From a virus, in IMG/VR virus record IMGVR_UViG_3300047476_001680, positions 1 to 64,000 of that record: DNA of 64,000 nucleotides; one strand, given 5' to 3'. This document shows, piece after piece, positions 1 through 26,702 of this stretch. Every line of letters starts with the position of its first letter. The stretch's first letter is position 1. A model generated the notes under the pieces. It had not been told where the DNA came from. It saw only the letters and a list, made by a program, of their open reading frames with translations, and made no database searches. The position numbers and the translations under genes are program-made.

Positions 1-771
1 GACTGGATACACTATCTGGGAACCAGTAAACTTGAATGGGCTATGTTGTTTACCGACGTACAACGTGCAGTGAGAAAGTACCATAACCCCAGTTTGACTG
101 TGAGTTTTGACTGTGCTAGTCCTTTCCTGGCCACAGCCAACGGACAAGTGTATTGGAAAAATAATCTGGAAGACCGTGCCAAATGGTCCTACAAGATGAA
201 AAAATGCGTGGACGATAAAAAGTATGCCAACGACAGTCGTTACTTCCGTGACGCAGTCGTACAAGATGGCATATTTGAAGAATTTATCCCCAGTCCCATA
301 ATCGATCGTACCAAAATTTCTGATATTTGCTGGTACGGCCCTGGCGACCTAAATAAAATCGGCAAAGAAGGCAAGACTTCCTGGGATAGCTTTGCCTATG
401 CTATCTTGATGGGCCACAATGTCTATGCACACCTTAAAGCAGTACAGGATGGCAACGAACGCTACGATGCTGGTGTAATTCCTGAAATGTTGGTGCGCGA
501 AGTCACAGTGCGTGAAACATTCAGACAGGTCACTGATGATATTTTCAGTGCACCCACACACGCTGATGCAATGCGCCGTATCGATGAATTTGACAAGTGG
601 TATACTTGTATTGTAGGATCAAGTGCCAATGGATTCCTGGGTAAAAGAGCTGTAAATGCCCATACTAAATTGGAGGAACATTTCGAAATGGAGGGCAGCG
701 GGCCAGAAATCGAAGCTGCTGAACGTAAAAAAACCGAAGTTGTATTAAACCCTGATCTTTTTGAGGAGTAA
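1..771 (+). CDS. TGT/DpdA-like transglycosylase, 3' part (partial)
   Basis: The frame is open to the left edge, so this is the C-terminal part (256 codons seen) of a larger gene. Near residues 5-50 it has HYLGTS and then SFDCASPFLATANG. These parallel the GVGTP and FDC-x-PTR-x-x-RNG core of tRNA-guanine transglycosylases, where the Asp of FDC is the nucleophile. The TGT zinc motif CxCxxC is not visible in this part, so it is not an ordinary bacterial Tgt. Phage relatives called DpdA insert 7-deazaguanine bases into DNA, and folE, queD and queE lie within the next 13 kb, which fits that role. The family call rests on eye alignment of one short region. The gene ends in GAGGAGTAA, which doubles as the ribosome-binding site of the next gene. 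Confidence 0.55.
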   Translation, partial: DWIHYLGTSKLEWAMLFTDVQRAVRKYHNPSLTVSFDCASPFLATANGQVYWKNNLEDRAKWSYKMKKCVDDKKYANDSRYFRDAVVQDGIFEEFIPSPIIDRTKISDICWYGPGDLNKIGKEGKTSWDSFAYAILMGHNVYAHLKAVQDGNERYDAGVIPEMLVREVTVRETFRQVTDDIFSAPTHADAMRRIDEFDKWYTCIVGSSANGFLGKRAVNAHTKLEEHFEMEGSGPEIEAAERKKTEVVLNPDLFEE

Positions 772-772
772 T

Positions 773-982
773 ATGTACAAGGAAAAAATTCGCCATCTGG
801 AGGAAATGCATCGAGTGCTTAACAAACAAATCGACGATATGGAAAGAAATCATCCCCACGTTGAAAAAGAAAAATTGGCCGAGATGAAAAAGCGTAAACT
901 TTCTATTAGGGACGAAGTATCTCGTCTAAATAGATTGCAATGGGAGTACGACCATAATACTGTACAAGGTGAAGATTATTAA
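773..982 (+). CDS. YdcH/DUF465-like small coiled-coil protein
   Basis: A 69-residue, highly charged helical protein. Its pattern LEEMHRVLNKQIDDMER-x-HP followed by L-x-EMKKRKLSIRDE resembles the YdcH/DUF465 family of small bacterial and phage coiled-coil proteins, whose function is unknown. The ATG at 773 is chosen because GAGGAG sits 5 nt upstream, inside the stop region of the preceding gene. It is probably co-transcribed with that gene. No catalytic residues are apparent. Confidence 0.75.
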   Translation: MYKEKIRHLEEMHRVLNKQIDDMERNHPHVEKEKLAEMKKRKLSIRDEVSRLNRLQWEYDHNTVQGEDY

Positions 983-1024
983 TTATAATATCACTACAAA
1001 CAACAATCTTAAATTTTAATTATT

Positions 1025-1453
1025 ATGAATCAAGAACAACGCGAAACTGTAGATAGGGTGATGGAAAATGCATCTAGACAAATTTGGGTTACCTTTCAGA
1101 AAGAAGGCGTTCATTTGTATCCAGCGGCTGGCACAGATCCTAAATTACAGGATGTTAGTTTTCTCAGCCATCCTCATCGTCACATTTTCCACTTCAGGGT
1201 GTACATTGATGTGTTCCATAATGACCGGGACATTGAATTCATCCAATTCAAAAGATGGTTACAAGGGCTGTATGATAATGCAGTTCTAGAACTGAATTTT
1301 AAATCCTGCGAGATGATTGCCGACGATCTTTACCTCAAGATATCTGAAAAGTATCCCAATAGGAATGTCACAATCGAAGTCAGTGAAGATAACGAAAATG
1401 GTTGTTCAATCAACTACGCCCTACACAAGCCAGCAATGTCAATTAAAGTTTAA
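1025..1453 (+). CDS. Conserved phage protein, possible divergent T-fold (QueD-like)
   Basis: 142 residues. Residues 45-75 read SFLSHPHRHIFHFRVYIDV, then an RDIEFIQFKRWL segment; further on come LN-x3-CEMIADDL and a VTIEVSEDNENG strand near 115-126. The order (histidine-rich strand, acidic strand leading to a helix, helix, final V-x-VSE strand) follows the 6-pyruvoyl-tetrahydropterin synthase/QueD fold. The canonical HGH zinc pair is not in its usual form. Either a catalytically divergent T-fold protein or unrelated; the fold is inference. A better QueD candidate exists at 11400-11918. No clear ribosome-binding site precedes the ATG; the 42-bp gap upstream is A+T-rich with nothing recognised. 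Confidence 0.7.
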   Translation: MNQEQRETVDRVMENASRQIWVTFQKEGVHLYPAAGTDPKLQDVSFLSHPHRHIFHFRVYIDVFHNDRDIEFIQFKRWLQGLYDNAVLELNFKSCEMIADDLYLKISEKYPNRNVTIEVSEDNENGCSINYALHKPAMSIKV

Positions 1454-1463
1454 GGAGAACAAA

Positions 1464-1670
1464 ATGGTAGCTGCATATATTAAAAAACATTTTAAAATGA
1501 AACCCGAAGTTTCCAAGATCTTTGATGATCTTGAAGCTTATAAAGATTACTGCCGTAATTATATGTTAAAATTTGACGAGAAGGATTTGTATAAATCCGA
1601 GCAGTATCGCAAATTTGAAAAACAACGTAATTGGCTGTTACGTCAACAAGCCAAGGAAAATTCTCAATGA
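1464..1670 (+). CDS. Small hypothetical phage protein
   Basis: 68 residues, basic and predicted helical, with many Lys and Tyr, ending QQAKENSQ. The ATG at 1464 has AAGGAG seven bases upstream; an upstream in-frame start at 1317 would overlap most of the preceding gene and has no ribosome-binding site. The stop overlaps the next start as ATGA, so the two are translationally coupled. I do not recognise a family. Confidence 0.75.
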   Translation: MVAAYIKKHFKMKPEVSKIFDDLEAYKDYCRNYMLKFDEKDLYKSEQYRKFEKQRNWLLRQQAKENSQ

Positions 1671-1933
1671 TTAATGTTGTTCAAAACTTTATCAAGTCCA
1701 ACATTCCAGCGATGGAAATGTTGGGCGTGATAATGCGTATCATCAGCTTTACCCTGGTATCCTGGTTAGGCCCAGCAAGTCCCTTTATGTTTGTCTGGGT
1801 CTTTAACACTCTGGATGCTATACTATTAACCTATTGCGCGGTCCTCAAACAAGACCGTGCCTACACTTTACTTAACGGATTCTGGATTCTGGTGGGTACC
1901 ATTGGAATAGCCAGGGCAGGAGGACTATTATGA
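1667..1933 (+). CDS. Small membrane protein (three hydrophobic segments)
   Basis: 88 residues with three hydrophobic stretches (about residues 15-33, 37-55 and 64-86). The segments read as LVSWLGPASPFMFVWVFNTLD, a short basic loop with KQDR, then LLNGFWILVGTIGIARA. The ATG overlaps the previous stop (ATGA). Its layout, with prolines before the second segment and N-x2-W/L-x5-TIG-x2-R in the third, is shared with the membrane protein at 11020-11310, so the two are probably paralogues. Function unknown; an inner-membrane location is inferred. The stop overlaps the next start. Confidence 0.8.
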   Translation: MINVVQNFIKSNIPAMEMLGVIMRIISFTLVSWLGPASPFMFVWVFNTLDAILLTYCAVLKQDRAYTLLNGFWILVGTIGIARAGGLL

Positions 1934-2421
1934 GCGAAGCAATGCGTGAAAAAGACAGTGCAGACTACGACCTAGAACGTTTTATTGAAATGTTTGACAC
2001 GGCGATGACTAGCAACGACCCACGAGTGCAGAATGCACTGCGTCAACTTATGATGATGGTAATTTTGACTGACAATAGTCACGAAAACAGAGAGAGAAAA
2101 CTGGGCGGGCGGCAGGGGCCACTGCGCAGAATCACAGAAGAACTCAATATGGTGCAGCGTCGTATGCACGACTTGGCTAATGAACTCAGCACATTGAGAT
2201 TGGCAGCAGTCAACTCTCAGGCCAGGTCAGCACTAGATCCCTACGTGGATAGAGGACACCGGTACGAAAGAGAAGGGATGGAAGTCGCTAAAAGGCCTTA
2301 CCCCAGTACACCAGAAGTGTCTATGGGTCAAGTAGCTGTGAACATTCACGGAGAACACGCAGTGCCCGAGAGTGGTAAAAAACTTGCATCACTTATACAG
2401 AGGATGTCGGGCCACAAGTAA
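1930..2421 (+). CDS. Hypothetical phage protein, 163 aa
   Basis: Begins with ATG overlapping the previous TGA (ATGA). The N-terminal 55 residues are acidic and helical (ERFIEMFDTAMTSNDPRVQNALRQLM). A likely coiled coil follows around residues 65-95 (LRRITEELNMVQRRMHDLANEL). The C-terminus is polar and low in structure. No family recognised. It lies between a small membrane protein and a glycosyltransferase in one run of overlapping genes. Confidence 0.75.
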   Translation: MSEAMREKDSADYDLERFIEMFDTAMTSNDPRVQNALRQLMMMVILTDNSHENRERKLGGRQGPLRRITEELNMVQRRMHDLANELSTLRLAAVNSQARSALDPYVDRGHRYEREGMEVAKRPYPSTPEVSMGQVAVNIHGEHAVPESGKKLASLIQRMSGHK

Positions 2422-3491
2422 TGAAAACTATCTATATAGTTCCCATTGAACCCATAGATGCTAGATATACCAAACAATGGTATGAAAACATACCAGCGAT
2501 TCTAGAATCTGAAATCACTAAACGTAATCTAGATGTAAAGGTGGTCACTGTTGATGGTGTTAGTATTCCACCCAACACCACCACTGGTGCGTTTTTAGAT
2601 TTTGGTGCTACCAATGTCTACAAAGCCAGCCAGGCTGAGCGTATCAGTCGTATGTTCAGTGAGGGCAAGATTCAGCCTGGTGACAAGTTTTTAGTAACTG
2701 ACGCCTGGAACTTTGTGATCACTCCCATCAAGTATATGAGTGACTTGTTGGATATACCCGTGGAGATACACGGCATCTGGCACGCCGGCGCCTATGACCC
2801 CAGTGACATCCTGGGCTACAAAATGAATAAGCCCTGGCCCTGGCATACTGAACGTGGGTGGTATCATAGTTGTGATTATAACTACTATGCAACCAATTTT
2901 CACAAGGATATGTTCTTGCGTAACTTGAACATCGAAGAGGACGCATACTTCAAGGCGGTGCGATCAGGTCAACCACACGACCCAATTATTGATCAATGTG
3001 GACAATATTGGAATGTTGCTAAAACTAACACGATGATCTGGCCGCATAGATACAACGCCGACAAACAACCAGAGATAGTAGAGGATCTGTCTTCATTGAT
3101 CGCTGGCGACACAATTATCACGCAGAAATTAAACTTATCCAAGGATGAGTACTACAAAACTCTTGGCGGTTGTTCAGTGATGTTTAGTTGTAGCCTACAC
3201 GAGAATCTTGGTATCAGTATGATGGAGGGTGTACTAGCTGGAGTTATCCCCATTGTGCCAGATCGTTGCTCGTACAAGGAAATGTATCTAGATGAATTCA
3301 AATATCCCTCGGAATGGACTGAAAGTGTTGATGCGTATAAACAACACCGCGATGATCTGGTAGAATTTGTAAACCGAAGAATCAATAATAGAGATCAGTT
3401 TATAGGTGCATTACAGCGCCAAAAAAATATTTTGGTACAAAACTACCTAAATGCCACGGTGATGATTGACAAGTTGCTGTTAAACATTTAA
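2421..3491 (+). CDS. GT-B-type glycosyltransferase
   Basis: 356 residues. The C-terminal half carries the nucleotide-sugar binding signature of GT-B retaining transferases: CSLHENLGISMMEGVLAG followed by VIPIVPDRCSYKEMY (about residues 255-295), equivalent to the EX7E motif of family GT4/GT1 enzymes. The N-terminal half has an alternating strand/helix pattern (TIYIVPIEPIDARY, then DKFLVTDAWNF). No membrane anchor is seen. Acceptor unknown: modified DNA bases, a virion protein or host surface glycan are all possible. It shares one base with the preceding stop (TAATG). Other transferase-like genes lie at 27.8-31.8 and 44.4-47.3 kb. Confidence 0.8.
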   Translation: MKTIYIVPIEPIDARYTKQWYENIPAILESEITKRNLDVKVVTVDGVSIPPNTTTGAFLDFGATNVYKASQAERISRMFSEGKIQPGDKFLVTDAWNFVITPIKYMSDLLDIPVEIHGIWHAGAYDPSDILGYKMNKPWPWHTERGWYHSCDYNYYATNFHKDMFLRNLNIEEDAYFKAVRSGQPHDPIIDQCGQYWNVAKTNTMIWPHRYNADKQPEIVEDLSSLIAGDTIITQKLNLSKDEYYKTLGGCSVMFSCSLHENLGISMMEGVLAGVIPIVPDRCSYKEMYLDEFKYPSEWTESVDAYKQHRDDLVEFVNRRINNRDQFIGALQRQKNILVQNYLNATVMIDKLLLNI

Positions 3492-3515
3492 AATGACAAA
3501 ATCAAGGAGAGTAAA

Positions 3516-3707
3516 ATGAAAGTATCTAACAAACTAAGCAAAGTAAGCGACAGTTACACTGTCAATATGTATGACAATGGGTTTATGGTGGAAATAAGCG
3601 GTCGCAACGAAGAAAATGACTGGGCTACAGCCAAAATTCTATGTGGCGATTTGAACGATGTTCTAGAGCTGGTCAAAGAAATCGCCGATATGCCACGTGA
3701 CAATTAA
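3516..3707 (+). CDS. Small hypothetical phage protein, 63 aa
   Basis: 63 residues with two beta-like segments (DSYTVNMYDNGFMVEISGR) and a helical, acidic C-terminus. A good AAGGAGAG ribosome-binding site precedes the ATG. It sits just upstream of folE. No family recognised. Confidence 0.7.
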   Translation: MKVSNKLSKVSDSYTVNMYDNGFMVEISGRNEENDWATAKILCGDLNDVLELVKEIADMPRDN

Positions 3708-3720
3708 TTTTAGGAAAACG

Positions 3721-4401
3721 ATGAAACAACCTATCAGTGAAGAAATTAGAAAGCGTGTGGAAGCTGCTGGTGTGCGTTACCACAGCAACGACAACATTTC
3801 TGAATTTATTAAAGAAGGTGAACTAGAAGCACTGCAACAAGAGGTCGCCTACAAGATGGAAGATGTCCTGCAGAGTTTGGTCATTGATACTACACACGAT
3901 CATAACACGCAGGACACAGCCAATCGCGTGGCCAAGATGTTTATTCAGGAAACGTTCAGTGGTCGCTATCGTCCAGTGCCCAAGGTTACTGCCTTTCCCA
4001 ATATGGGATATAAGAGTCTGTACACCACTGGACCAATTACTATTCGCAGCACTTGTGCACATCACTTTCAGAATATCGTGGGTAAATGCTGGGTGGGTAT
4101 TGTTCCTGAAGACGAAGTCATTGGCCTGAGCAAGTTTAACCGCATAGTTCATCATATCTGCGAGCGTCCACAAATTCAGGAAGAAATGACCACGCAAATT
4201 GCAGAAGCATTAAAGAAGTATGCCAAGACTGAAAACATTGCAGTAGTGGTTAAAGCCGAGCATCACTGTATGACACATCGTGGTGTTCGTGAACACGAAA
4301 GTGATATGACCACTGCAATTATGCTGGGTAGATTCCTGGAAGATCCGGCTCTTAAGAAAGAGTTCTACGACATCTGTATGAGTATGAAGGGACATAACTA
4401 A
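3721..4401 (+). CDS. folE: GTP cyclohydrolase I
   Basis: Converts GTP to 7,8-dihydroneopterin triphosphate, the first step of both folate and 7-deazaguanine synthesis. 226 residues, the usual length. The zinc ligands are present as C112, H115 and C183 (STCAHHFQ and AEHHCMTHRGVR). The signatures VIGLSKFNRIV and RPQIQEEMTTQI surround the active site. The ATG at 3721 is preferred because AGGAAA lies just upstream; a GTG at 3697 would overlap the previous gene by 11 bp. With queD and queE at 11.4-13 kb it most likely feeds a 7-deazaguanine pathway rather than folate, although a DHFR is also encoded. Confidence 0.95.
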   Translation: MKQPISEEIRKRVEAAGVRYHSNDNISEFIKEGELEALQQEVAYKMEDVLQSLVIDTTHDHNTQDTANRVAKMFIQETFSGRYRPVPKVTAFPNMGYKSLYTTGPITIRSTCAHHFQNIVGKCWVGIVPEDEVIGLSKFNRIVHHICERPQIQEEMTTQIAEALKKYAKTENIAVVVKAEHHCMTHRGVREHESDMTTAIMLGRFLEDPALKKEFYDICMSMKGHN

Positions 4402-5015
4402 TGGCTATCTGGAGGGTTTCTACCTATTACAAAAAATCCTGTGAGGAGCACGAGTATTATTACAAGGACGGGCAAACAATTGTCCGTAAAACAGGATTTC
4501 GATGGGGAAGTTTTTTTGTAGAAACAGATGATGACAACCCGCCAAAGTTTGAATTTGACTATGTTCCCGGTGGTGATGGCAGACTGGATAGTATTAATAT
4601 GTATGACTGTTGTGTTAATAACATTGTGGGTTCCGAACTAGAACATATGAGTGACGGCTGCTGGGAAGACATAGAGTTTCCAGAAGAAATGGATGACGAG
4701 GAACAGGAAAGATTAACTGAACTGTTTGATGAATCCAGTATTTACGAAGTTCTTGAAGAAAGTGAAGGCTGGAGTCAAAACGACACTGAAGCCTGGGTCT
4801 GGGGTCCTATACTCATCGAGGATGAAGCAGGTAACCGAGTCAGAATTATCTGCGCTGACAGTCAAGGTAATGTGATTGATTTTAAAGAAGACGAAGAAGA
4901 CGATGAAGATGAGGAAGTTACCTTTGAAGAACTTGCTAAAATTAATCCAGAGACAGAAGAAGATGTAATTAAATCTATGCCTGTATGGCCATTTCCTGAC
5001 ATCAAGGACAAATAA
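4401..5015 (+). CDS. Acidic hypothetical phage protein, 204 aa
   Basis: 204 residues. The N-terminal half has repeated aromatic strands (SCEEHEYYYKDGQTIVRK, TGFRWGSFFVETDDDNPP) and a cysteine pair in MYDCCVNN. The C-terminal third is very acidic, with a run of Asp/Glu near residues 160-175. AGGGA precedes the ATG, which shares its A with the folE stop (TAATG). It resembles a conserved hypothetical protein of marine T4-like phages; function unknown. Such acidity is sometimes seen in DNA-mimic proteins, but nothing here demonstrates that. Confidence 0.8.
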   Translation: MAIWRVSTYYKKSCEEHEYYYKDGQTIVRKTGFRWGSFFVETDDDNPPKFEFDYVPGGDGRLDSINMYDCCVNNIVGSELEHMSDGCWEDIEFPEEMDDEEQERLTELFDESSIYEVLEESEGWSQNDTEAWVWGPILIEDEAGNRVRIICADSQGNVIDFKEDEEDDEDEEVTFEELAKINPETEEDVIKSMPVWPFPDIKDK

Positions 5016-5239
5016 TGAACCACAAAGAACTTGTTGACAATATTATTTTTCGAGCAAAAAACATTCAGGAATTTACTGTGATCACCGCAGTACCTCAAGG
5101 CTTTATGTTCAATGGCCCAGTGCCTTTTGATATACGAATTGCCGGAGGCTATATCGAGGCAGATATTCTAGCAATGGATTTTGACGAAGCCACCAAGATG
5201 TTCCACAATTGGCTGGAAGGATTAAAAGAAAATGATTAA
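5015..5239 (+). CDS. Small hypothetical phage protein, 74 aa
   Basis: 74 residues, alternating helix and strand (FTVITAVPQGFMFNGPVPFDIRIAG in two halves), with an acidic helical end. AAGGA lies 7 bases before the ATG, which overlaps the previous stop (TAATG). No family recognised; part of the same run of coupled small genes. Confidence 0.7.
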   Translation: MNHKELVDNIIFRAKNIQEFTVITAVPQGFMFNGPVPFDIRIAGGYIEADILAMDFDEATKMFHNWLEGLKEND

Positions 5240-5525
5240 GTTAAAACGCTGGATCCGCAATTGGTTAACCAGTGACGATATTCAATTAGGTCATATTGCA
5301 GAAAAAGAACCAAGAAACTATCCCAGAGCAGTGGACACTGTGGATTCTGGAGACAACCTTAAGTTTACTGTGACATCAGCCACGGGTGGCATAATTATCA
5401 CTAGTAACTATTTTGACAAGCACCGCGGTGAAAATAAACATAACATTTATCTAATACACGATGACGACGAAGTAGCCGAAAATATTACTAAAATAATAAC
5501 ACTAGAGTTGCTAAAAAAGCAATAA
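5232..5525 (+). CDS. Small hypothetical phage protein, 97 aa
   Basis: 97 residues with a basic, Trp-containing N-terminus (MIKLKRWIRNWL) that may be an amphipathic helix. A beta-rich middle (KFTVTSATGGIIITSNYF) and an acidic helical end follow. It overlaps the preceding gene by 8 bp. It is the last gene before a 68-bp promoter-bearing gap, so it probably ends the first transcription unit. Function unknown. Confidence 0.7.
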   Translation: MIKLKRWIRNWLTSDDIQLGHIAEKEPRNYPRAVDTVDSGDNLKFTVTSATGGIIITSNYFDKHRGENKHNIYLIHDDDEVAENITKIITLELLKKQ

Positions 5526-5534
5526 TATTATCAC

Positions 5535-5563
5535 TTGACCTTAAAGTAATATACTGTTATTAT
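5535..5563 (+). promoter_or_regulatory. Sigma70 promoter for the FG-GAP lipoprotein
   Basis: TTGACC (5535-5540), 17-bp spacer, TATTAT (5558-5563). The predicted start near 5570 leaves a leader of about 24 nt with GAGGG before the ATG at 5594. It lies in one of the few true intergenic gaps and is overlaid by an inverted repeat. Confidence 0.7.
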
Positions 5564-5578
5564 ACGGTATATTACTTT
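5543..5578. promoter_or_regulatory. Inverted repeat overlapping promoter (putative operator)
   Basis: Perfect 12-bp arms AAAGTAATATAC (5543-5554) and GTATATTACTTT (5567-5578), separated by 12 bp. The left arm sits in the promoter spacer and the right arm over the predicted transcription start. This position is typical of a repressor operator. The arms are A+T-rich and no T-run follows, which argues against a terminator. Confidence 0.55.
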
Positions 5579-5593
5579 CTTCTTGAGGGAACT

Positions 5594-8143
5594 ATGAAAA
5601 CTAAACAAACAAATTTAAGTATAATCTCGTTTTTGATTATGGCGCTGTTTTCCACTACTGCTTGCACTCAAACTCTTGGCGGCTTTACTAGATCCCCATT
5701 AAATGCGTCAATCACCAAATCTTCTGCAAGTTCCCCAGTAAACACTGCTCCCATAACGTCATTTACTCTAGCAAATTCTTTTAGTCCAGTAGATTCTACT
5801 AATAGATCATACGTTGTGCACGATTTATTCGCACGTGATTTAAACAAAGACAGAGTAGATGAGATTATATATGCAGGGCGTGTTTCTAATTATTCCGGGG
5901 CGATCTATGAAGAAGTAAATCTTAATATTTTTGGTTGGAACGTAAACAAGTCAAAATTAACCAATGAAACCACTCGTTGGTTCTCTCCCGGTGAAAATAA
6001 AATCAAAGGTACAGAACCCACTGTTTTATTTGGTAATTTTACTGGTGGTGGTACTGACATTTTCCTAGCACAAAGCACAGACAGACCTGACGAGAACACA
6101 ATGGGTCCGGCAGTTATTTTCAAGAACACTGGCAAAAACAAATTAACTAGAATAGAACTGCCCGGAACTACTTCTTGGTCACACGGCTCAGCCACGTTCG
6201 ACATTAATGGTGACGGAAAAATGGATATTATGGCTGTGAGCTATAATAACAATTCATTCACAGTGTTGGGTGGCGTCACCCCTAAAGTTTTCAGTGACGC
6301 TAACTCTAATTCCTCAGGGACTGACTCTCAGGGTCGTGCGGTTGCTGGAGTATTTGGTAGTGGCCTAACTATTGGCAAATTTCTCAATAACAATAAAGTC
6401 TACGCTATTGTGGCGGACAGTCCTTATATTGATGGTGTGCCAGGAAGCTGGGGGCGTGTGGCTATGATGGAAGTTTACGCTGGTTTTCATTATGAAAACG
6501 GTGTAAAAACTACCAAAGAGATTGCTGGTGTGATACCTTCTACTGCTAAACTATTACCATTACCTCACCTGGAGGCTGAGAAAGCTAGTAGTATGGGGAT
6601 GACTGAATTAGATTACATACAACGTGGAGATAGTAACATCAGCCACGATACCCGTGTTATCACACTAAAAGTTAATAATGATAAATTCTCTGACATTGCA
6701 GTTATCAGTCGTCCAAATGCGCCTGATAATAACTGGGGTGCAGTTAAAGGTGATAGTTATGTAACATTTTACAAAAACAATGGTGATGGTACTTTTAGTC
6801 GTGTAGGTCTTTTCTTTAAAGAAAATGCTCGTTTTTATAATGTAGAAACACGTGACATTAATGGTGACGGTAGAGCAGACCTAATTCTCAGTGCACAACA
6901 AGGTAATACATCTATCCTTATAGCTAAACAACAAAAAAATGGTGATATAGTTTATGTCGAAGCAGGTTCTAATGTCATCAAGGCTTTTGAAGATAAAATT
7001 CGAGCCAATACAGGAGGTGGATGCACAGAAACAGATAACTGGTGTGTGGGTGCGACAAATATTGTCCGCGGCCCTGGTGGTAAAAACTACGTAGTTGGTA
7101 TTCACAATGAGTACCCTATGACTGGGGGCCAAATTTCACATACTTACTACAGTATCATTGGCAACAAGGGAACACTGACACTCAATGGTGCAATACAAAC
7201 TCTTATGTCGCAGTGGAATCTCACTGAAAAACAAGCTACAGAAATTTTGAAGTTAACTGGCACAAACTATGCTGATGGCACTGTTATTAATATTGATGCT
7301 GCGATGCAGCCTGTCAGGGGTCTATGGTTTCCAATGAATGGCAAGATGGTAGCACTGCAAGGTGGTGTTTCGGGCATTGCACCCAATGAAGCTATCAAGA
7401 ATTTTACGGGTGTTGATTATTATAACCGTAATTTTAGTTTAGACATTGGGCAGAGATTAAGTTCTTCCGATTACTGGAGTCAACGATCCTATCAAGCCAT
7501 CAATCACGGGCTTGCTAGTATGCAATTACAGAATACTGATATAATTACTATTGGTAATTTCAAATTTAATAGTACTAACGATCCAATGGAAGGTGCTAAA
7601 TCTTGGGCGATGGGTGTAAGTGGTATCGCTATCAATGACAACACTGAAATGTCAATGAGTATTAGCAAGGTACCATTCAATCCTTGGTTCTCTATGTCAG
7701 GCACCTGGGGGCAGTTACAAAATTCTTCTATCATTGAAAGTAGTATATTACACACAACTGGCCCTTGGTCCTACCGTGGAGGTTTGATGCAAGTTACCAG
7801 TGAATATACACCTGGGTTGGTGACCGCAGTAAAACCAATCTATGCTGGCTGGGCTGATGTAGAGTATATGGTAAATGATAATTTAAAGGTTGCCACGGGT
7901 GTTCTTCCCTATGCATTTGCTGGCTCAGTGAGTATGACTTTACCCACTGGTATTGACAATCAAGGCCAATTCTCTTATACTAGTTCCAGTGCAAGTATCA
8001 AGGATACTATGCGCGGATATGCTCGGATTAACTACACTGGACTGGTTGAAAATCACAAAAATATATCATATAGTTTTACAGGCTTAATAACTGACCACGG
8101 TGTGCCAGCTGGTCGCGCAACGCTTAATTACAGCTTTAAATAA
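5594..8143 (+). CDS. Lipoprotein with FG-GAP/VCBS repeats and subtilase-like C-terminal region
   Basis: 849 residues. The N-terminus is a lipoprotein signal: a basic start, a hydrophobic core and lipobox STTAC with Cys at residue 24, so it is predicted to be exported and lipidated. Calcium-binding FG-GAP/VCBS motifs follow: DLNKDRVDEI (about 82), DINGDGKMDI (about 203), DINGDGRADL (about 421). From residue 525, GTLTLNGAIQTLMSQW followed by LTEKQATEILKLTGTNYADG and INIDAAMQPV resembles the end of S8 subtilase domains (GTSMAAP, final helices), but the catalytic Ser position is Leu. The last 250 residues have alternating hydrophobic strands ending in Phe-Lys, like an autotransporter-type barrel. 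It has its own promoter. Likely role at the host envelope (surface change or superinfection exclusion); inferred. Confidence 0.8.
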   Translation: MKTKQTNLSIISFLIMALFSTTACTQTLGGFTRSPLNASITKSSASSPVNTAPITSFTLANSFSPVDSTNRSYVVHDLFARDLNKDRVDEIIYAGRVSNYSGAIYEEVNLNIFGWNVNKSKLTNETTRWFSPGENKIKGTEPTVLFGNFTGGGTDIFLAQSTDRPDENTMGPAVIFKNTGKNKLTRIELPGTTSWSHGSATFDINGDGKMDIMAVSYNNNSFTVLGGVTPKVFSDANSNSSGTDSQGRAVAGVFGSGLTIGKFLNNNKVYAIVADSPYIDGVPGSWGRVAMMEVYAGFHYENGVKTTKEIAGVIPSTAKLLPLPHLEAEKASSMGMTELDYIQRGDSNISHDTRVITLKVNNDKFSDIAVISRPNAPDNNWGAVKGDSYVTFYKNNGDGTFSRVGLFFKENARFYNVETRDINGDGRADLILSAQQGNTSILIAKQQKNGDIVYVEAGSNVIKAFEDKIRANTGGGCTETDNWCVGATNIVRGPGGKNYVVGIHNEYPMTGGQISHTYYSIIGNKGTLTLNGAIQTLMSQWNLTEKQATEILKLTGTNYADGTVINIDAAMQPVRGLWFPMNGKMVALQGGVSGIAPNEAIKNFTGVDYYNRNFSLDIGQRLSSSDYWSQRSYQAINHGLASMQLQNTDIITIGNFKFNSTNDPMEGAKSWAMGVSGIAINDNTEMSMSISKVPFNPWFSMSGTWGQLQNSSIIESSILHTTGPWSYRGGLMQVTSEYTPGLVTAVKPIYAGWADVEYMVNDNLKVATGVLPYAFAGSVSMTLPTGIDNQGQFSYTSSSASIKDTMRGYARINYTGLVENHKNISYSFTGLITDHGVPAGRATLNYSFK

Positions 8144-8147
8144 TAAA

Positions 8148-8672
8148 ATGAAAAAATTTATTTTAGATAACAACCAATTTAAATCGCTAGTGGCGGGTCT
8201 TGCAAGAGACATTACGCTGTCAGGCTGGCGACCAGATTATATTGTAGGGATCACAAGAGGCGGATTACTACCGGCTGTTATGCTTAGTCATTATTTTGAT
8301 ATACCTTGTGAAACCTTAAAGGTCAGTTTGCGTGATGGTGGTGAGCCCGAAAGTAATCTCTGGATGGCTGAAGATGCTTTTGGTTATGACCAGGGTAAGA
8401 GTGTTCCGCACCTCTGCAAAAATATCTTAGTAGTGGACGACATCAATGACAGTGGCGCAACCATTAACTGGATTATGGAGGACTGGCGGTCTGGGTGTAT
8501 GCCCAACGATGCTGCCTGGAACACAGTCTGGGGAAGGAATGTACGATTTGCGGTGCTGGTGGATAATACTGCTAGCCAATGCCAGACCTCAATGAGTTAT
8601 TTTGGTATGGAAGTTAACAAATCTGAAGAAGACGTTTGGATAGAATTTCCTTATGAAAAATGGTGGACTTAA
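8148..8672 (+). CDS. Phosphoribosyltransferase (PRTase) family protein
   Basis: 174 residues. The PRPP-binding signature ILVVDDINDSGATI (about residues 97-110) and the upstream GITRGGLLPAVMLSHYFDIP segment identify a type I phosphoribosyltransferase, closest in style to hypoxanthine/xanthine-type enzymes. Such enzymes join a base to PRPP or do the reverse; the base used here cannot be read off. The ATG at 8148 follows the lipoprotein stop by 4 bp and suits the family length. It overlaps the next gene by 20 bp. Purine salvage during infection or supply of a modified base are both possible. Confidence 0.88.
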   Translation: MKKFILDNNQFKSLVAGLARDITLSGWRPDYIVGITRGGLLPAVMLSHYFDIPCETLKVSLRDGGEPESNLWMAEDAFGYDQGKSVPHLCKNILVVDDINDSGATINWIMEDWRSGCMPNDAAWNTVWGRNVRFAVLVDNTASQCQTSMSYFGMEVNKSEEDVWIEFPYEKWWT

Positions 8673-9195
8673 TTTAAGCATTTCTGTTTTCGGAAGTAAA
8701 GTAAATTCTTGGCCCACTCTCTTAATCAGTATCAATGATTGCATTGTCTATGATAAAGAAGTATCCGGGAGCAAAACAATATCTATCGATGTTGACGCAA
8801 TAAAAGTTTACAATATTAAAGTTTCTGGAATAGGGAAAAAGTTTGGTGAAGATGGCGTCTACGATACCATCGTTGACTCGCAGGGAAATATAATACAAGA
8901 TAAAAGTCTTATTATAACTGATATATCAGTAAATGGCATAGCTATGGATGATCACTGGATAAGATCTTTACCATTCTTCACTGATAATTTTACTAATTTT
9001 TCTGCAAAGGGATTCTATACTAACGGTGAATTAAGATTCAGTATTACTGAACCTGTATTAGACTGGGTCATTAATGAAAGATTTATTAAACATAAAACAC
9101 AAAATACACAAATATTTGGTGGTGGAGACAAGTTTGAATATACAGAAATATTAAATAAGATTGATCATATTAAAAAAACATACTTTAATGACTAA
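8653..9195 (+). CDS. Hypothetical beta-rich protein, 180 aa
   Basis: 180 residues, predicted almost all beta in the first two thirds: SISVFGSKVNSWPTLLISIND, a GIGKKFGEDGVYDTIVDSQG loop, then SLIITDISVNGIAM. This looks like a jelly-roll or carbohydrate-binding beta-sandwich, but no family is certain. The C-terminus is helical and basic. The ATG lies inside the PRTase gene (20-bp overlap), and the gene overlaps the following radical SAM gene by 8 bp, so the three are coupled. Similar proteins occur in marine phages as far as I recall; function unknown. Confidence 0.75.
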   Translation: MKNGGLNLSISVFGSKVNSWPTLLISINDCIVYDKEVSGSKTISIDVDAIKVYNIKVSGIGKKFGEDGVYDTIVDSQGNIIQDKSLIITDISVNGIAMDDHWIRSLPFFTDNFTNFSAKGFYTNGELRFSITEPVLDWVINERFIKHKTQNTQIFGGGDKFEYTEILNKIDHIKKTYFND

Positions 9196-10678
9196 AACAC
9201 TAATATGCAATCTCCCACCGTTAGATAACACTAGGCCCCCACTCAGTGGGGCTATTTTGACAAGTATTTGTAAATCTCAAAGGCACGACGTCGTGGCAAG
9301 AGACGTCAACGTTGATCTAAGGAAATATCTACATATTAGGCAATTAGATTTATCTTTTTTTGATGACGTTTTTTATGAAATGTCTGACGATTACTCAGAA
9401 AATCAAAAAAAAGTTATTAATGAATTTTTACTTAATTACTTCGAGTATTTAAATGTCAAAGAATTTGATTACATAGTAGTCAGTCTTTTTTCTTTTCTTG
9501 CACAGTCATTTGCTAATATATTTTTGCCTGAACTACGTAAAGTATCTAAAGCAAAAATAATTATTGGTGGTGCTGGCCTCACTAAACTTGTAAGTGACCC
9601 TACTTATATAGGATATGGACAAGAATTAAAAAACAAAAATTTAATTGACGAATTTATTACCGGCGAAGCCGAAGAAGCATTGATACAATATTTTAGCACG
9701 GGCTCTGGCCCAGGAATAGGTAATTCAAATTTTATACAATTAGATGATCTGGATCGATACCCATTTCCTGACTACTCTGAGTACGATTTGTCAAATTACC
9801 GAACCCAAGATGGGTCGCTAGAGCTTAATATCATTGGTAGTCGTGGTTGTGTTCGCGACTGTACTTTTTGTGATGTAAGGAAAACTTCCCCCAAGTATAG
9901 ATTTAGATCAGGAAAAAACATTGCTGATGAAATTATTCATCATTATGAAAATTATGGTGTTACTGATTTTTATTTTGCTGATAGCCTAGTAAATGGTAGT
10001 TACAAAGCTTTTGATGATATGTGCAATGCACTAACAAATTATAAATTTCACAAACCAATATCTTGGTCTGGTCAATATATTATACGAACTAAAGAAACTA
10101 CACCCAAGAACCATTTTGATTTGTTAGCTGCGAGCGGTGCGAAAAATCTTTACGTAGGTATAGAATCAGGATGTGATAAAATAAGATTTGAAATTGGAAA
10201 AAAATTTACCAATAATGATATTGACTTTTATTTAGAAAACTTTTATAAACATAATATCAAGATACTATTTTTGTTTTTTACTGGGTACATTACAGAGACC
10301 CTTGATGATTACAAAGAAACCTTAAAAATGTTTCCACGTTGGCAAAAGTTTGTTGCATCTGGAACCATAATTGGTGTGGAAACTTTAAATTTGTTAAGTA
10401 TTTTACCTGGCACACACCTAGAATCACTGGCAATGAATAACAATTTTGTATTTAAACAAAATGATGATAATGGACATCTTAATACCAAATTTTGGATAGA
10501 CCCTGGTCAGCCCACTTATGACTATCTTGAAAGAGTAAAACGTCATCTAGGTGTTATGGAAGAAGCAATTAAGTACAAATGGCCAGTTTGGAACGCATCC
10601 ATTTCGTTAAACCTTATTGAACAAAGTTTAATTAGTTTTAACAATCCTAAAAATCGATATATTAAATTAAAAGGATAA
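9188..10678 (+). CDS. B12-binding-domain-type radical SAM protein
   Basis: 496 residues. The N-terminal part (about 1-180) has the Rossmann-like layout of cobalamin-binding radical SAM enzymes (NLPPLDNTRPPLSGAIL; FDYIVVSLFSFLAQ; KIIIGGAG; FITGEAEEAL). The radical SAM core begins at GSRGCVRDCTFC with the [4Fe-4S] cysteines C221, C225 and C228 (CX3CX2C). YVGIESG, about 110 residues later, is the usual second core motif. The strict cobalamin-ligating DXHXXG is not seen, so B12 dependence is uncertain. Start ATG 9188 is preferred over an upstream alternative at 9161. Likely a methyltransferase or C-C bond-forming enzyme; substrate unknown. It follows a PRTase and a beta-sandwich protein. Confidence 0.85.
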   Translation: MTKTLICNLPPLDNTRPPLSGAILTSICKSQRHDVVARDVNVDLRKYLHIRQLDLSFFDDVFYEMSDDYSENQKKVINEFLLNYFEYLNVKEFDYIVVSLFSFLAQSFANIFLPELRKVSKAKIIIGGAGLTKLVSDPTYIGYGQELKNKNLIDEFITGEAEEALIQYFSTGSGPGIGNSNFIQLDDLDRYPFPDYSEYDLSNYRTQDGSLELNIIGSRGCVRDCTFCDVRKTSPKYRFRSGKNIADEIIHHYENYGVTDFYFADSLVNGSYKAFDDMCNALTNYKFHKPISWSGQYIIRTKETTPKNHFDLLAASGAKNLYVGIESGCDKIRFEIGKKFTNNDIDFYLENFYKHNIKILFLFFTGYITETLDDYKETLKMFPRWQKFVASGTIIGVETLNLLSILPGTHLESLAMNNNFVFKQNDDNGHLNTKFWIDPGQPTYDYLERVKRHLGVMEEAIKYKWPVWNASISLNLIEQSLISFNNPKNRYIKLKG

Positions 10679-10681
10679 AGT

Positions 10682-11023
10682 ATGATAGCATTGCCACCTG
10701 GTGTGAAACTTAATTTCAGCATCTATATTGATGTGCAAAATCTCACTCAAGATATGATAGAGTGGTATCGCACTGTGGGTGGTGAAGTATCCCAGGACAC
10801 TGTCTACGATCATCGTGGCAGGCAATTAGATACAACCTATGTTAAGTACGGTCGTGGTAAACGTAGCTATAAATATACTAATTCCACACAGACAAAATTG
10901 CATTTTAATGGTGAGGACGCCTCGGTGGCCAGTCTTTTTGTTCTCAAATATCTAGACTTGATTATAAACACCAACTTGCAGGAACAAATGGAAAGATTTG
11001 AACGAGAGGATGCGATTAATTGA
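10682..11023 (+). CDS. Hypothetical phage protein, 113 aa
   Basis: 113 residues; beta-rich N-terminal half (KLNFSIYIDVQNL) and a helical acidic end. AAGGA precedes the ATG, 3 bp after the previous stop. It overlaps the next gene by 4 bp (TTGA). No family recognised. Confidence 0.72.
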   Translation: MIALPPGVKLNFSIYIDVQNLTQDMIEWYRTVGGEVSQDTVYDHRGRQLDTTYVKYGRGKRSYKYTNSTQTKLHFNGEDASVASLFVLKYLDLIINTNLQEQMERFEREDAIN

Positions 11024-11310
11024 ACGACATACTAGCAGATATTTTTAAATGGATTAAAAGTGACTTTAATTCTTACCGTTTTCGTTTTATTGTTGAGCTT
11101 TTGGCTTGGGCTATCTCTATTTGTTGCAGTGTCACGATGGCACTCACTGTACCTAACCCGCCTCTACTTGTCCTATATCCTATTTGGATTTGTGGTTGTG
11201 CTATGTATTCGTGGGCTGCTTGGACTCGTAGGAGTTTTGGAATGCTTGCCAATTACCTACTGCTCGTGACAATTGACACTATTGGCTTGATGCGAATGCT
11301 ACTAAACTAA
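11020..11310 (+). CDS. Small membrane protein (paralogue of the 1667-1933 protein)
   Basis: 96 residues starting at TTG 11020, which overlaps the previous TGA. Three hydrophobic segments (about 22-42, 47-65 and 74-94): FIVELLAWAISICCSVTMAL, PPLLVLYPIWICGCAMYSW, LANYLLLVTIDTIGLMRML. The arrangement of prolines, Trp and the final N-x-TIG-x2-R pattern matches the membrane protein at 1667-1933. No ATG lies near the N-terminus. Inner membrane predicted; role unknown. Confidence 0.7.
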   Translation: MNDILADIFKWIKSDFNSYRFRFIVELLAWAISICCSVTMALTVPNPPLLVLYPIWICGCAMYSWAAWTRRSFGMLANYLLLVTIDTIGLMRMLLN

Positions 11311-11399
11311 ATAATATTCTACACAGCGGCCTTCCTGGCTCTTCATCCCGCTTTACAAATTCTGCAGGCCTATGTTAACATTTAATATAGGAGAAGATA
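11311..11399 (+). promoter_or_regulatory. Intergenic gap with weak promoter-like sequence before queD
   Basis: An 89-bp gap. A weak promoter-like pair TTCTGC (11360-11365) and TAATAT (11383-11388) with a 17-bp spacer is present, and AGGAG precedes the queD ATG. I looked for a preQ1 riboswitch because of the neighbouring que genes and saw no recognisable one. Confidence 0.3.
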
Positions 11400-11918
11400 A
11401 TGTTATACCTTAAAGAAACTAACCCCCCAAGAACTTATAAATTTGTAAGTACTAAAGAATACCACGACGCTTTTCCCTGTGCCTACAGGCAATGGCGTGC
11501 AGATAGTCACTGTAACCTAATCCACGGTTATAGTTTTAGTATGAAGTTTTACTTTGGTACTGATAGTCTAGATGTGCGCAACTGGGCTGCTGATTATGGC
11601 GGCCTAAAAGAACTTAAAAAGGTACTAGAAGATCAATTCGATCACACTTTACTAGTGGCACAAGATGATCCAGAACTGGAAACATTTAAAATGCTACAAG
11701 AACGTAAAATGGCTAAGTTAACCATCCTACCCAGATTGGGCTGTGAGGGTTTAGCCGATATGCTTTACAAATATGTCAATGGTGTGTATATTCCTGATAT
11801 GTGGGGGCCGGGCGAAGCAGAACGTCTCTGGTGCTTCCGTGTGGAAGTTCGTGAAACTCAGGCTAATATGGCGTTCCGTGAAGGCCATCGTGAATGGGAC
11901 GAAGATCTATTTGCGTGA
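11400..11918 (+). CDS. queD: 6-carboxytetrahydropterin synthase, phage type
   Basis: Converts dihydroneopterin triphosphate (FolE product) to 6-carboxytetrahydropterin, the second step to preQ0. 172 residues with the T-fold pattern: H22, C38-x3-H42 in SHCNLIHGYSF, then WAADYGGLKELKK, catalytic DH at 81-82 (FDHTLLV) and a VEVRET strand with E152. The third zinc His of the usual HGH is Tyr here (HGY), so metal binding may differ from cellular QueD. Ribosome-binding site AGGAG 6 nt before the ATG. Followed by queE after one small gene, as in other phages with 7-deazaguanine DNA. Confidence 0.88.
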   Translation: MLYLKETNPPRTYKFVSTKEYHDAFPCAYRQWRADSHCNLIHGYSFSMKFYFGTDSLDVRNWAADYGGLKELKKVLEDQFDHTLLVAQDDPELETFKMLQERKMAKLTILPRLGCEGLADMLYKYVNGVYIPDMWGPGEAERLWCFRVEVRETQANMAFREGHREWDEDLFA

Positions 11919-11928
11919 TTGATTTTTT

Positions 11929-12117
11929 ATGAAAACTCGAGAACAAATCATCACTGATATGTGTTACACTTATCGCCACGATTACGGTCTTGACAAGACC
12001 AATGATACTGGTATATTTTCTTCAGGCACTACTGAAGAAGAACGAAGATGGCTCTGGGCAGTGATGGCGCAGATTTTCGACAACAACATAGCACCACATA
12101 TGGAATTCAAAAAATGA
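11929..12117 (+). CDS. Small hypothetical protein between queD and queE
   Basis: 62 residues, helical, Trp-containing (TEEERRWLWAVMAQIFDNN). It starts 10 bp after queD and overlaps queE as ATGA, so the three are one translational unit. No family recognised. Inside it, TTGACA (11990-11995), 16 bp and TATATT (12012-12017) could be an internal promoter for queE; the -35 lies within a 15-bp palindrome. Confidence 0.7.
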   Translation: MKTREQIITDMCYTYRHDYGLDKTNDTGIFSSGTTEEERRWLWAVMAQIFDNNIAPHMEFKK

Positions 12118-12962
12118 GTAAATTAAAAGTAGCAGAACTATTCTACAGTATACAAGGAGAAGGACGCTTTATGGGTGTTCCTTCTATTTTCTTACGTACA
12201 TTCGGTTGTAACTTTACCTGTGCAGGCTTTGGTATGCCACGTGGAGAGCGTAGTACAGCTAATGACCAAGTAGCACAAGAAATCAATAAGTTCGAGAAAT
12301 ATGAAGACCTTCCAGTAGTGTCAACTGGTTGCGATAGCTATGCCAGCTGGGACGCTAGATTTAAGGATCTTAGTCCTGTACTAACAGTGGATGCCATTGC
12401 TGATAGGATGATGGAAATACTTCCTGATAACAAATGGCGAGGTGTTCATTTGGTTATTACTGGCGGCGAGCCTCTACTGGGCTGGCAGCGTAGCTATCCA
12501 GACTTGTTAAATCACGAAAAGCTTAAAAAGTTAAAAGATCTAACATTTGAGACCAATGGTACTCAAGAACTCACTAAGGATTTTAAACTATATCTTTATA
12601 AATGGACACACAAACAAGGTTATCATAATTTAACATTCAGTGTTAGTCCTAAATTAAGTGTCAGTGGAGAAAAGAGAGAAGATGCTATTCGTCCGGACAT
12701 TGTTCGCGAGTACGAAGACCTAGGCCATACATACTTAAAATTTGTTGTGGCAACGGAAGATGATGTCACAGAAGCACTGGAAGTGATTGACATATACAAG
12801 AAAGAAGGGTTTAGTGGACACGTCTATCTGATGCCCGTGGGTGGTGTGGAAAGTGTGTATACTCTAAATAATCGAAGAGTAGCAGAACTAGCAATGAAAC
12901 ACGGACTACGATACTCCGACAGGCTGCAGGTTCCATTGTTTAAAAACGCCTGGGGGACCTAA
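12114..12962 (+). CDS. queE: 7-carboxy-7-deazaguanine synthase (radical SAM)
   Basis: Radical SAM enzyme turning 6-carboxytetrahydropterin into 7-carboxy-7-deazaguanine. 282 residues. KVAELFYSIQGEGRFMGVPSIF is the family N-terminus and VITGGEPLL (GGEP 117-120) the SAM-binding motif. Cluster cysteines are unusual: C32 and C36 (GCNFTCAGFG) lack the third Cys of CX3CX2C, and the next candidate is C73 in STGCDSYASWD after a 36-residue insert. ATG 12114 overlaps the previous stop (ATGA). No queC follows within the window, so the preQ0-forming step must be encoded elsewhere or by the host. Confidence 0.9.
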   Translation: MSKLKVAELFYSIQGEGRFMGVPSIFLRTFGCNFTCAGFGMPRGERSTANDQVAQEINKFEKYEDLPVVSTGCDSYASWDARFKDLSPVLTVDAIADRMMEILPDNKWRGVHLVITGGEPLLGWQRSYPDLLNHEKLKKLKDLTFETNGTQELTKDFKLYLYKWTHKQGYHNLTFSVSPKLSVSGEKREDAIRPDIVREYEDLGHTYLKFVVATEDDVTEALEVIDIYKKEGFSGHVYLMPVGGVESVYTLNNRRVAELAMKHGLRYSDRLQVPLFKNAWGT

Positions 12963-25468: not shown

Positions 25469-25737
25469 CAAACAGTTCATCTTCATCTAATAGAGTCAAG
25501 GTAGTATTTGCTACTCTTAGACTGGCTGATGTTGAAGACCCGGAAATATACGCGGCAGGTCCTTTGATGGATTGGCAAAAAACAGAAATGGGACAATGGT
25601 GTATGGAGAATTCTCTAGATCAACCCCATTATACTATAATACAGGACTATGCTACCTGGGGGTATACTATCAAGGTATCGGGAATACTAATGGAAAAAGA
25701 CTTCACTTATTTTTCCCTGAAATGGGGGCAACAATGA
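25465..25737 (+). CDS. Hypothetical phage protein after thyA, 90 aa
   Basis: 90 residues, starting ATG within the thyA stop (ATGA). A Ser-rich start is followed by KVVFATLRLADVEDPEIYAAG, MDWQKTEMGQWCMEN, and YTIIQDYATWGYTIKVSG. Alpha/beta pattern; no family recognised. Confidence 0.72.
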   Translation: MTNSSSSSNRVKVVFATLRLADVEDPEIYAAGPLMDWQKTEMGQWCMENSLDQPHYTIIQDYATWGYTIKVSGILMEKDFTYFSLKWGQQ

Positions 25738-26702
25738 AATTTATTGTAACTGGTGGTGCTGGTTTTATAGGTCATAATGTTGTTCGTCAACTTGAGGATC
25801 AAGGTCATAATTGTTTTATTGTTGACAATGTCACTGACTATGGTTTTTTAAACAATCAAGAACTTGAGTATCTTTATCGAGCAAGATCTAATAGAACTCG
25901 AGCTGGCGCTCATCACATTGATATAAGAGATTATAAATCACTTAGAGGATTTTTTAGTACTTTCGCTGTTGATTGCCACGCTGTAATACATCTAGCTAGT
26001 TTTCCAAGACAAAAAGTTGTTGGAAAAAATCCTATCTGGGGTAGTGAAGTGATGAGTACTGCACTTATTAATTTGCTGGAATTAACCAAGAGTTACCGTA
26101 TACCTAAATTTGTTTATATAAGCTCTAGTATGGTTTATGGAGACTTCAAGGACGATGTGAAAGAGGATGCTATATGTCGCCCACAGGGACAGTATGGTAT
26201 TATGAAACTTATGGGCGAGCATCTTGTACGTGACTATACAAGACAAGGACATTTTGATCACGTTATCATTAGGCCTAGTGCAGTCTACGGAGAATATGAC
26301 GTGGAGGATCGTGTGGTAAGTAAGTTTATGTTAAGTGCTCTACGTGGAGAGACTTTAAAAGTTAATGGGGCTGGTGAAACTCTTGACTTTACCTACGTGG
26401 AAGATGCTGCCAGTGGCATCGTGGCGGCTGCCACTAAACAAGCTGCCAATAATAAAACATATAACATCACAAAGAGTCACAGTTATAGTCTACTGGACGC
26501 GGCACGTATTGCTGTCGAGATCGCTGGTCGTGGTGAAATAGAGGTGCGTGACAGAGATCTAGACTTTCCCAGTCGCGGTGCCTTAAACATTGACGCAGCA
26601 CGTAGAGATCTTGGCTTTGACCCCAAGGTTGATGTGCGTGAGGGGTTTCAACGATATGCTGATTGGTTTAGGAGTAGTCCATATTGGAAAAACCTGATCT
26701 AA
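25734..26702 (+). CDS. NAD-dependent sugar epimerase/dehydratase (extended SDR)
   Basis: 322 residues. Dinucleotide-binding TGGAGFIGHNVV at the N-terminus, catalytic YGIMK (Tyr-x3-Lys) near residue 150 with the SSSMVYG serine segment before it, and a sugar-nucleotide binding RPSAVYGEYD. It belongs to the UDP-glucose 4-epimerase-like group and acts on a nucleotide sugar; the exact reaction cannot be told. ATG 25734 overlaps the previous stop. It is followed, with a 19-bp overlap, by a sugar aminotransferase, forming an amino-sugar module. Confidence 0.9.
   Translation: MKFIVTGGAGFIGHNVVRQLEDQGHNCFIVDNVTDYGFLNNQELEYLYRARSNRTRAGAHHIDIRDYKSLRGFFSTFAVDCHAVIHLASFPRQKVVGKNPIWGSEVMSTALINLLELTKSYRIPKFVYISSSMVYGDFKDDVKEDAICRPQGQYGIMKLMGEHLVRDYTRQGHFDHVIIRPSAVYGEYDVEDRVVSKFMLSALRGETLKVNGAGETLDFTYVEDAASGIVAAATKQAANNKTYNITKSHSYSLLDAARIAVEIAGRGEIEVRDRDLDFPSRGALNIDAARRDLGFDPKVDVREGFQRYADWFRSSPYWKNLI

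Follow-up and report, generated by a model that had tools for sequence, protein, structure and literature searches.

The window analysed here, a stretch of 64,000 bases that constitutes bases 1-64000 of the 88,750-base IMG/VR record IMGVR_UViG_3300047476_001680, carries at its beginning a conserved gene module comprised of a dpdA-like transglycosylase, a QueD-like T-fold protein, a glycosyltransferase and FolE, often accompanied by a Gpt-like phosphoribosyltransferase, QueD and QueE. We assign a probability of roughly 0.55 to the reading that this is a 7-deazaguanine DNA-modification module that dispenses with QueC, in which the T-fold protein would process 7-carboxy-7-deazaguanine (CDG), the transglycosylase would insert the base, the glycosyltransferase would glycosylate it and the phosphoribosyltransferase would recycle the displaced guanine. 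An initial annotation had recognized FolE, QueD, QueE and a TGT/DpdA-like gene at 1-12962, dispersed among small genes, and the matches to Pfam and PHROGs together with the TGT motifs bear out these identities. The positions also stand, but the T-fold, glycosyltransferase and phosphoribosyltransferase genes lying between them had gone unrecognized and belong to the same module. The genes concerned are the following.

1-771, plus strand: DpdA/TGT-like base-exchange enzyme, C-terminal half, cut at its 5' end by the contig start (full-length relatives L004-L017).
1025-1453, plus strand: QueD-like T-fold protein of 142 residues, candidate CDG-processing enzyme (PHROG 17812, "unknown function"; AlphaFold2 model).
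2421-3491, plus strand: GT4-type (GT-B) glycosyltransferase (EX7E at E261-E269; R-x4-K at R210-K215; PF00534).
3697-4401, plus strand: FolE, GTP cyclohydrolase I (PF01227, E=1.5e-45; PHROG 2197, 1.3e-52).
8100-8672, plus strand: Gpt-like phosphoribosyltransferase (PF00156, E=4.9e-13; best NCBIfam match xanthine phosphoribosyltransferase, 1.1e-8, under the cut-off).
11400-11918, plus strand: QueD, phage type (PF01242, E=7e-15; PHROG 2389, 4e-37; aligned with E. coli QueD).
12048-12962, plus strand: QueE, 7-carboxy-7-deazaguanine synthase-like radical SAM enzyme (PHROG 2076, E=1e-56).

All three enzymes of the established pathway from GTP to CDG, FolE, QueD and QueE (scheme in PMC6884629), have genes in the window. 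QueE bears the cluster cysteines C54, C58 and C95, its likelier start lies at 12114, and its match to NCBIfam TIGR03365 (E=8e-15) is under the cut-off. The phage-type QueD keeps the catalytic Cys38, the Asp81-His82 dyad and Glu152 but only one of the canonical three zinc His residues, with Tyr at the other two positions. The next enzyme on the way to preQ0, QueC, gave no match to its Pfam model anywhere in the whole 88.75-kb record, itself a fragment, so that the absence of queC first noticed in the window is no mere effect of the window edge. Judged by eye from its gene content, the record derives from a T4-like myovirus; baseplate, portal-like and head genes occupy its far end, and it stops inside the gene that follows them.

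The first gene is assigned to the TGT/DpdA-like enzymes. The fragment alone has no significant match in Pfam, PHROGs, NCBIfam or PDB sequence searches, and the 5' half of the gene is not readable from the record, but full-length relatives supplied what the fragment lacks. Fourteen of these from IMG/VR, up to 93% identical, are proteins of about 520-590 residues bearing the motifs DSGGFQ and SFDC, the counterparts of DSGGFQ and MFDC in E. coli TGT; SFDC is present in the window fragment itself, where its Asp (residue 37, nt 109-111) is the predicted nucleophile. The full-length relatives thus have both Asp residues expected in the TGT/DpdA superfamily, the catalytic one within DSGG[FL]Q and the nucleophile within FDC/YD, and the window fragment has the second. 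An AlphaFold model of a full-length relative is of low confidence (pLDDT 53), and the finding that all 50 of its best PDB matches are TGTs (best E=4.8e-3) is only suggestive of a TGT-like TIM barrel. The profiles A1 and A2 found no match in the PDB, nor did A2 in Campylobacter CP220; PADLOC gave no match either. The zinc motif CxCxxC present in E. coli TGT occurs in none of 135 homologues of the window-type enzyme. This enzyme shares DSGG-Q and FD/YD motifs with DpdA2 of phage nt-1 (PHROG 10773) but differs from it in its length and its DSGGFQ motif; the L005 protein has no match in PHROGs, its hhalign comparison with DpdA2 is borderline (E=0.024), and that with DpdA of phage 9g (DpdA1) gives E=0.44, placing it in neither family. 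The window-type transglycosylase also occurs in Vibrio phage 2.275.O, which has QueC and lacks both the glycosyltransferase and the T-fold protein, and thus the type of enzyme alone does not set the branch of the pathway.

The AlphaFold2 model of the T-fold protein (pLDDT 85) displays the beta-beta-alpha-alpha-beta-beta arrangement of a T-fold, the best PDB match being E. coli QueD (4ntk; E=4.8e-5; TM 0.61/0.71), and an hhalign comparison with QueD gives E=0.0019 across 41 columns. The zinc-type HxH and a further His are common to this protein and the QueD/PTPS superfamily, and all 153 T-fold homologues keep HxH, HxYP and SCE, with three conserved His residues. E. coli QueD, to which it is 18% identical, has in addition a catalytic Cys and an Asp-His dyad; the motif C-x3-HxH is found in 0 of the 153 homologues and the dyad is missing from the alignment, which rules out a true QueD. 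A single QueD active site split between the T-fold protein and QueD was also considered and dropped, as relatives of the window's phage-type QueD occur in more than 100 phage records, most of them without a T-fold gene. For a step acting on CDG, the T-fold protein is the natural candidate. Work by Cui in NAR in 2023 is reported to have identified DpdL as a CDG decarboxylase, and the T-fold protein may be this DpdL, the likeness being a QueC-less FolE/QueD/QueE context and a T-fold family that includes Cellulophaga phiST. Beside the T-fold and glycosyltransferase genes, a small protein encoded at 1317-1670 (plus strand) is kept in 40 of 56 related loci and is a possible accessory gene.

Both motifs expected of a GT4/GT-B enzyme, EX7E and R-x4-K, are present in the glycosyltransferase, and PF00534 (Glycos_transf_1) is matched by nine of 13 family members, with a best value of 8e-12 and 9e-4 for the window member. 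A tblastn search with the window protein against 50,697 phage records matched 19, of which 15 belong to module phages (Phosso, X1, two ACP17 records and 11 PA5oct-type phages of Pseudomonas) and four show partial matches of 25% identity in another context; Synechococcus phage BUCT-ZZ01 carries a divergent member. The enzyme is predicted to glycosylate the modified base. Elsewhere in the window, an NAD-dependent epimerase and a DegT/DnrJ aminotransferase (25572-27832, plus strand) form a pair of nucleotide-sugar genes that might supply the glycosyltransferase or else the making of surface glycans, and a NodU/CmcH-type carbamoyltransferase (32046-33539, minus strand; PF16861, E=4.7e-51; PF02543, 4e-35) is of a kind that occurs in sugar and base modification.

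Pattern scans of IMG/VR with the glycosyltransferase and T-fold markers returned at least 600 matches each, which marks the module as common in environmental phages. The nearest 80 loci per marker query were kept, 160 in all, and 56 of these span at least 19 kb. Within these 56 the T-fold protein and the glycosyltransferase are each present in 56, the transglycosylase in 54, FolE in 52, QueE in 33, the phosphoribosyltransferase in 27, QueD in 25 and QueC in none; all 305 matches lie on one strand, in 18 different gene orders. Large environmental contigs (22, of 119-462 kb) gave only partial PP-loop matches with the QueC model.

Greater weight is carried by isolated phages of separate lineages. 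Whole records of PA5oct-type phages, PAC2, Phosso, ACP17, X1 and BUCT-ZZ01 contain the glycosyltransferase and the T-fold protein and no full-length QueC; the Pfam model finds nothing in PAC2, Phosso or ACP17 and one weak partial match in X1 (6.6e-4). The same model detects QueC with E<1e-51 in whole records of nt-1, 9g and Vibrio 2.275.O, which have neither of the two genes. Weak matches in the relatives G010, X1 and D479 and in several of the large contigs were not accepted as QueC, since they cover only part of the 210-position model with E from 6e-9 to 7e-3 against the E<1e-51 of these controls. The gene order varies: dpdA, glycosyltransferase, T-fold and, after other genes, phosphoribosyltransferase and QueE in PA5oct-type phages; QueD, FolE, DpdA2, glycosyltransferase, T-fold and QueE in ACP17; FolE and, after other genes, glycosyltransferase, DpdA2, T-fold and QueE in X1; T-fold, glycosyltransferase, FolE and QueE in Phosso, with dpdA elsewhere in the genome; and QueE, Gpt, QueD, FolE, DpdA2, T-fold and glycosyltransferase in BUCT-ZZ01. 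The transglycosylase itself is of the window type in some phages and a DpdA2 in others (PHROG 10773 in ACP17 and X1), while the glycosyltransferase and the T-fold protein stay. Seventy records with DpdA2-family proteins are mostly of KVP40/nt-1-like Vibrio phages, which are absent from the glycosyltransferase and T-fold matches. A comparison of neighbourhoods shows the T-fold, glycosyltransferase and phosphoribosyltransferase genes recurring around dpdA in relatives; the last is found in PA5oct-type phages and is annotated as xanthine-guanine phosphoribosyltransferase in BUCT-ZZ01.

Bacterial and archaeal genomes, when scanned, yielded 12 T-fold loci, most of which look like module phages binned with their hosts. 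Isolates of Aurantimonas sp. VKM B-3413 and Methylobacterium frigidaeris each carry a cassette of transglycosylase, membrane protein, T-fold protein and glycosyltransferase (L218, 6053-9430, and L220, 3-3428), with no FolE, QueD or QueE near either. The membrane protein matches Vut_1 in Aurantimonas (E=7e-5), and the Methylobacterium protein has no match. These cassettes could be prophage or a cellular DNA-modification system, and they suggest that transglycosylase, T-fold protein and glycosyltransferase form the functional core.

The sequences show the tight co-occurrence of these genes, their identities and active-site motifs, the T-fold by model and the lack of QueC, whereas the individual substrates, the nature of the sugar, a target in DNA and not in tRNA, and protection as the outcome are inferred. 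FolE, QueD and QueE would make CDG from GTP and, as QueC is lacking, the inserted base must be CDG itself or something derived from it. Processing of CDG would fall to the T-fold protein, with decarboxylation as the leading guess; the DpdA/TGT-like enzyme would swap guanine in DNA for the CDG-derived base, and the GT4-type enzyme would add a sugar to the base once inserted. The Gpt-like enzyme may feed the guanine set free back into the GMP/GTP pool, and the outcome would be phage DNA shielded from nucleases by glycosylated 7-deazaguanine. That these phages do make such a base in their DNA we put at even odds. In a bolder sub-case, the T-fold protein would strip off the carboxylate at C7, and the glycosyltransferase would attach the sugar, as a C-glycoside, to the nucleophilic pyrrole carbon thus exposed. 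The initial annotation had called the pathway partial and its final base unpredictable. A 7-deazaguanine modification pathway with a TGT/DpdA-like enzyme is well supported, but it is not merely partial, as the lack of QueC is reproducible across many phages, and the base can be narrowed down: the evidence favours one that is derived from CDG and probably glycosylated, with preQ0, preQ1 and G+ being unlikely candidates unless preQ0 of the host is used.

Several observations weigh against this reading. To our knowledge no chemistry has been reported for any of these particular proteins. The 56 environmental loci were chosen as nearest to the glycosyltransferase and T-fold queries and are not independent, and the window glycosyltransferase scores 19.2 bits with Pfam, under the curated cut-off of 26.4. 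CDG decarboxylation would leave no C7 group for O-glycosylation there; at the heterocycle of a decarboxylated base the sugar could be linked only through carbon or nitrogen (C- or N-glycoside) or through O6, which implies either another T-fold reaction or an unusual sugar linkage. Host QueC could supply preQ0. Finally, of seven further T-fold phages only BUCT-ZZ01 has the glycosyltransferase, phiST, RHph_I1_18, Ahp1_CNU-2021, Bakedbeans, D479 and MA9V-3 being without it, and the glycosyltransferase is thus an add-on. As the seven also lack QueC, apart from a partial match in D479, the T-fold protein marks the QueC-less pathway and the glycosyltransferase a subset of it.

It is possible, if rather unlikely, that the phages insert plain dCDG, or plain 7-deazaguanine if the T-fold protein is DpdL, and that the glycosyltransferase acts elsewhere, for instance on host surface sugars against superinfection. 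Both dCDG and dDG are reportedly phage bases. The six T-fold phages without the glycosyltransferase do carry FolE, often with QueD or QueE, and CDG was suggested for the queC-lacking phage Bipper (Hutinet 2019, PMC6884629), but the near confinement of the glycosyltransferase to module phages (15 of the 19 matched records) and its persistence with the module in distantly related phages as well as in the two bacterial cassettes favour a role within the pathway. Improbable in our estimation is a contribution of the host, whose QueC would turn phage-boosted CDG into preQ0 for insertion by the phage enzyme, the loss of queC being gene economy. QueC is indeed common in bacteria, as seen in control genomes, and 9g DpdA alone puts preQ0 into the DNA of E. 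coli, a bacterium that makes preQ0 itself (PMC6884629). However, the absence of QueC is consistent within the module group and coincides with the glycosyltransferase and T-fold protein, the three QueC-bearing deazaguanine phages having neither, and phages already equipped with FolE, QueD and QueE would presumably gain little by dropping QueC alone. A glycosylated queuosine-like base in tRNA, analogous to mannosyl- or galactosyl-queuosine and recalling the animal pairing of a TGT-like enzyme with QTMAN/QTGAL (PMC12518689), is highly improbable in view of the missing TGT zinc motif, the finding of no QueA, QueG or QueH in the virus survey of Hutinet 2019 (PMC6884629), and the membership of the ACP17, X1 and BUCT-ZZ01 DpdA2 proteins in a family linked to dPreQ0 in nt-1 DNA.

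The preferred reading of a glycosylated, CDG-derived base in DNA can be set against known systems. The phage dPreQ0 and dG+ pathways (9g, CAjan, nt-1; PMC6884629) have in common with it the first three biosynthetic steps and a base-exchange enzyme of the TGT superfamily, but they use QueC or Gat-QueC, whereas the window module has no QueC, no amidotransferase was seen in it, and it has the glycosyltransferase, the T-fold protein and often the Gpt-like enzyme. The T4 alpha- and beta-glucosyltransferases and the tRNA enzymes QTMAN and QTGAL likewise place a sugar on a modified nucleic-acid base, and sugars on 7-deazaguanine have precedent in tRNA (PMC12518689); here the acceptor would be 7-deazaguanine in DNA. 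Phages with FolE, QueD, QueE and DpdA but no QueC have already been noted, namely Bipper (PMC6884629), and among the jumbo-phage deazaguanine systems (PA5oct, Motura) a PA5oct synthesis and incorporation system was described in Iyer 2021 (PMC7824862), where the passages found draw no link to a glycosyltransferase or T-fold protein. The literature searched, which left out Cui 2023, contains no statement linking a deazaguanine system to the glycosyltransferase or PHROG 17812. The glycosyltransferase and T-fold protein that accompany the module suggest a guanine derivative bearing a sugar, so far undescribed in DNA, and we know of no earlier sugar-bearing purine there, so that a glycosylated 7-deazaguanine would be the first.

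Other genes of the region were considered and set aside as module members, namely a B12-type radical SAM gene at 9161-10678 (plus strand; PF04055, E=2.2e-14), found in only seven of the 56 loci, and an FG-GAP repeat protein at 5594-8143 (plus strand), found in only four. The latter, of 849 residues, lies inside the module region and is secreted-looking, with a lipoprotein-like start. A consecutive run of radical SAM genes at 35320-44399 (minus strand) is of unusual density: five of five tested match PF04055, two of them also SPASM, and two more were recognized by eye.

If the preferred reading is true, what seems an incomplete pathway would prove to be complete, forming a separate and widespread branch of guanine modification in which salvage of guanine by the phage's own phosphoribosyltransferase is predicted as a consequence of base exchange. 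It provides a testable role for PHROG 17812 and the glycosyltransferase, neither of which is a family of known function. The module phages include isolates, namely jumbo phages of Pseudomonas and a cyanophage whose host is a harmless strain used in laboratories (BUCT-ZZ01, on S. elongatus PCC 7942), which makes their DNA directly accessible to such a test.

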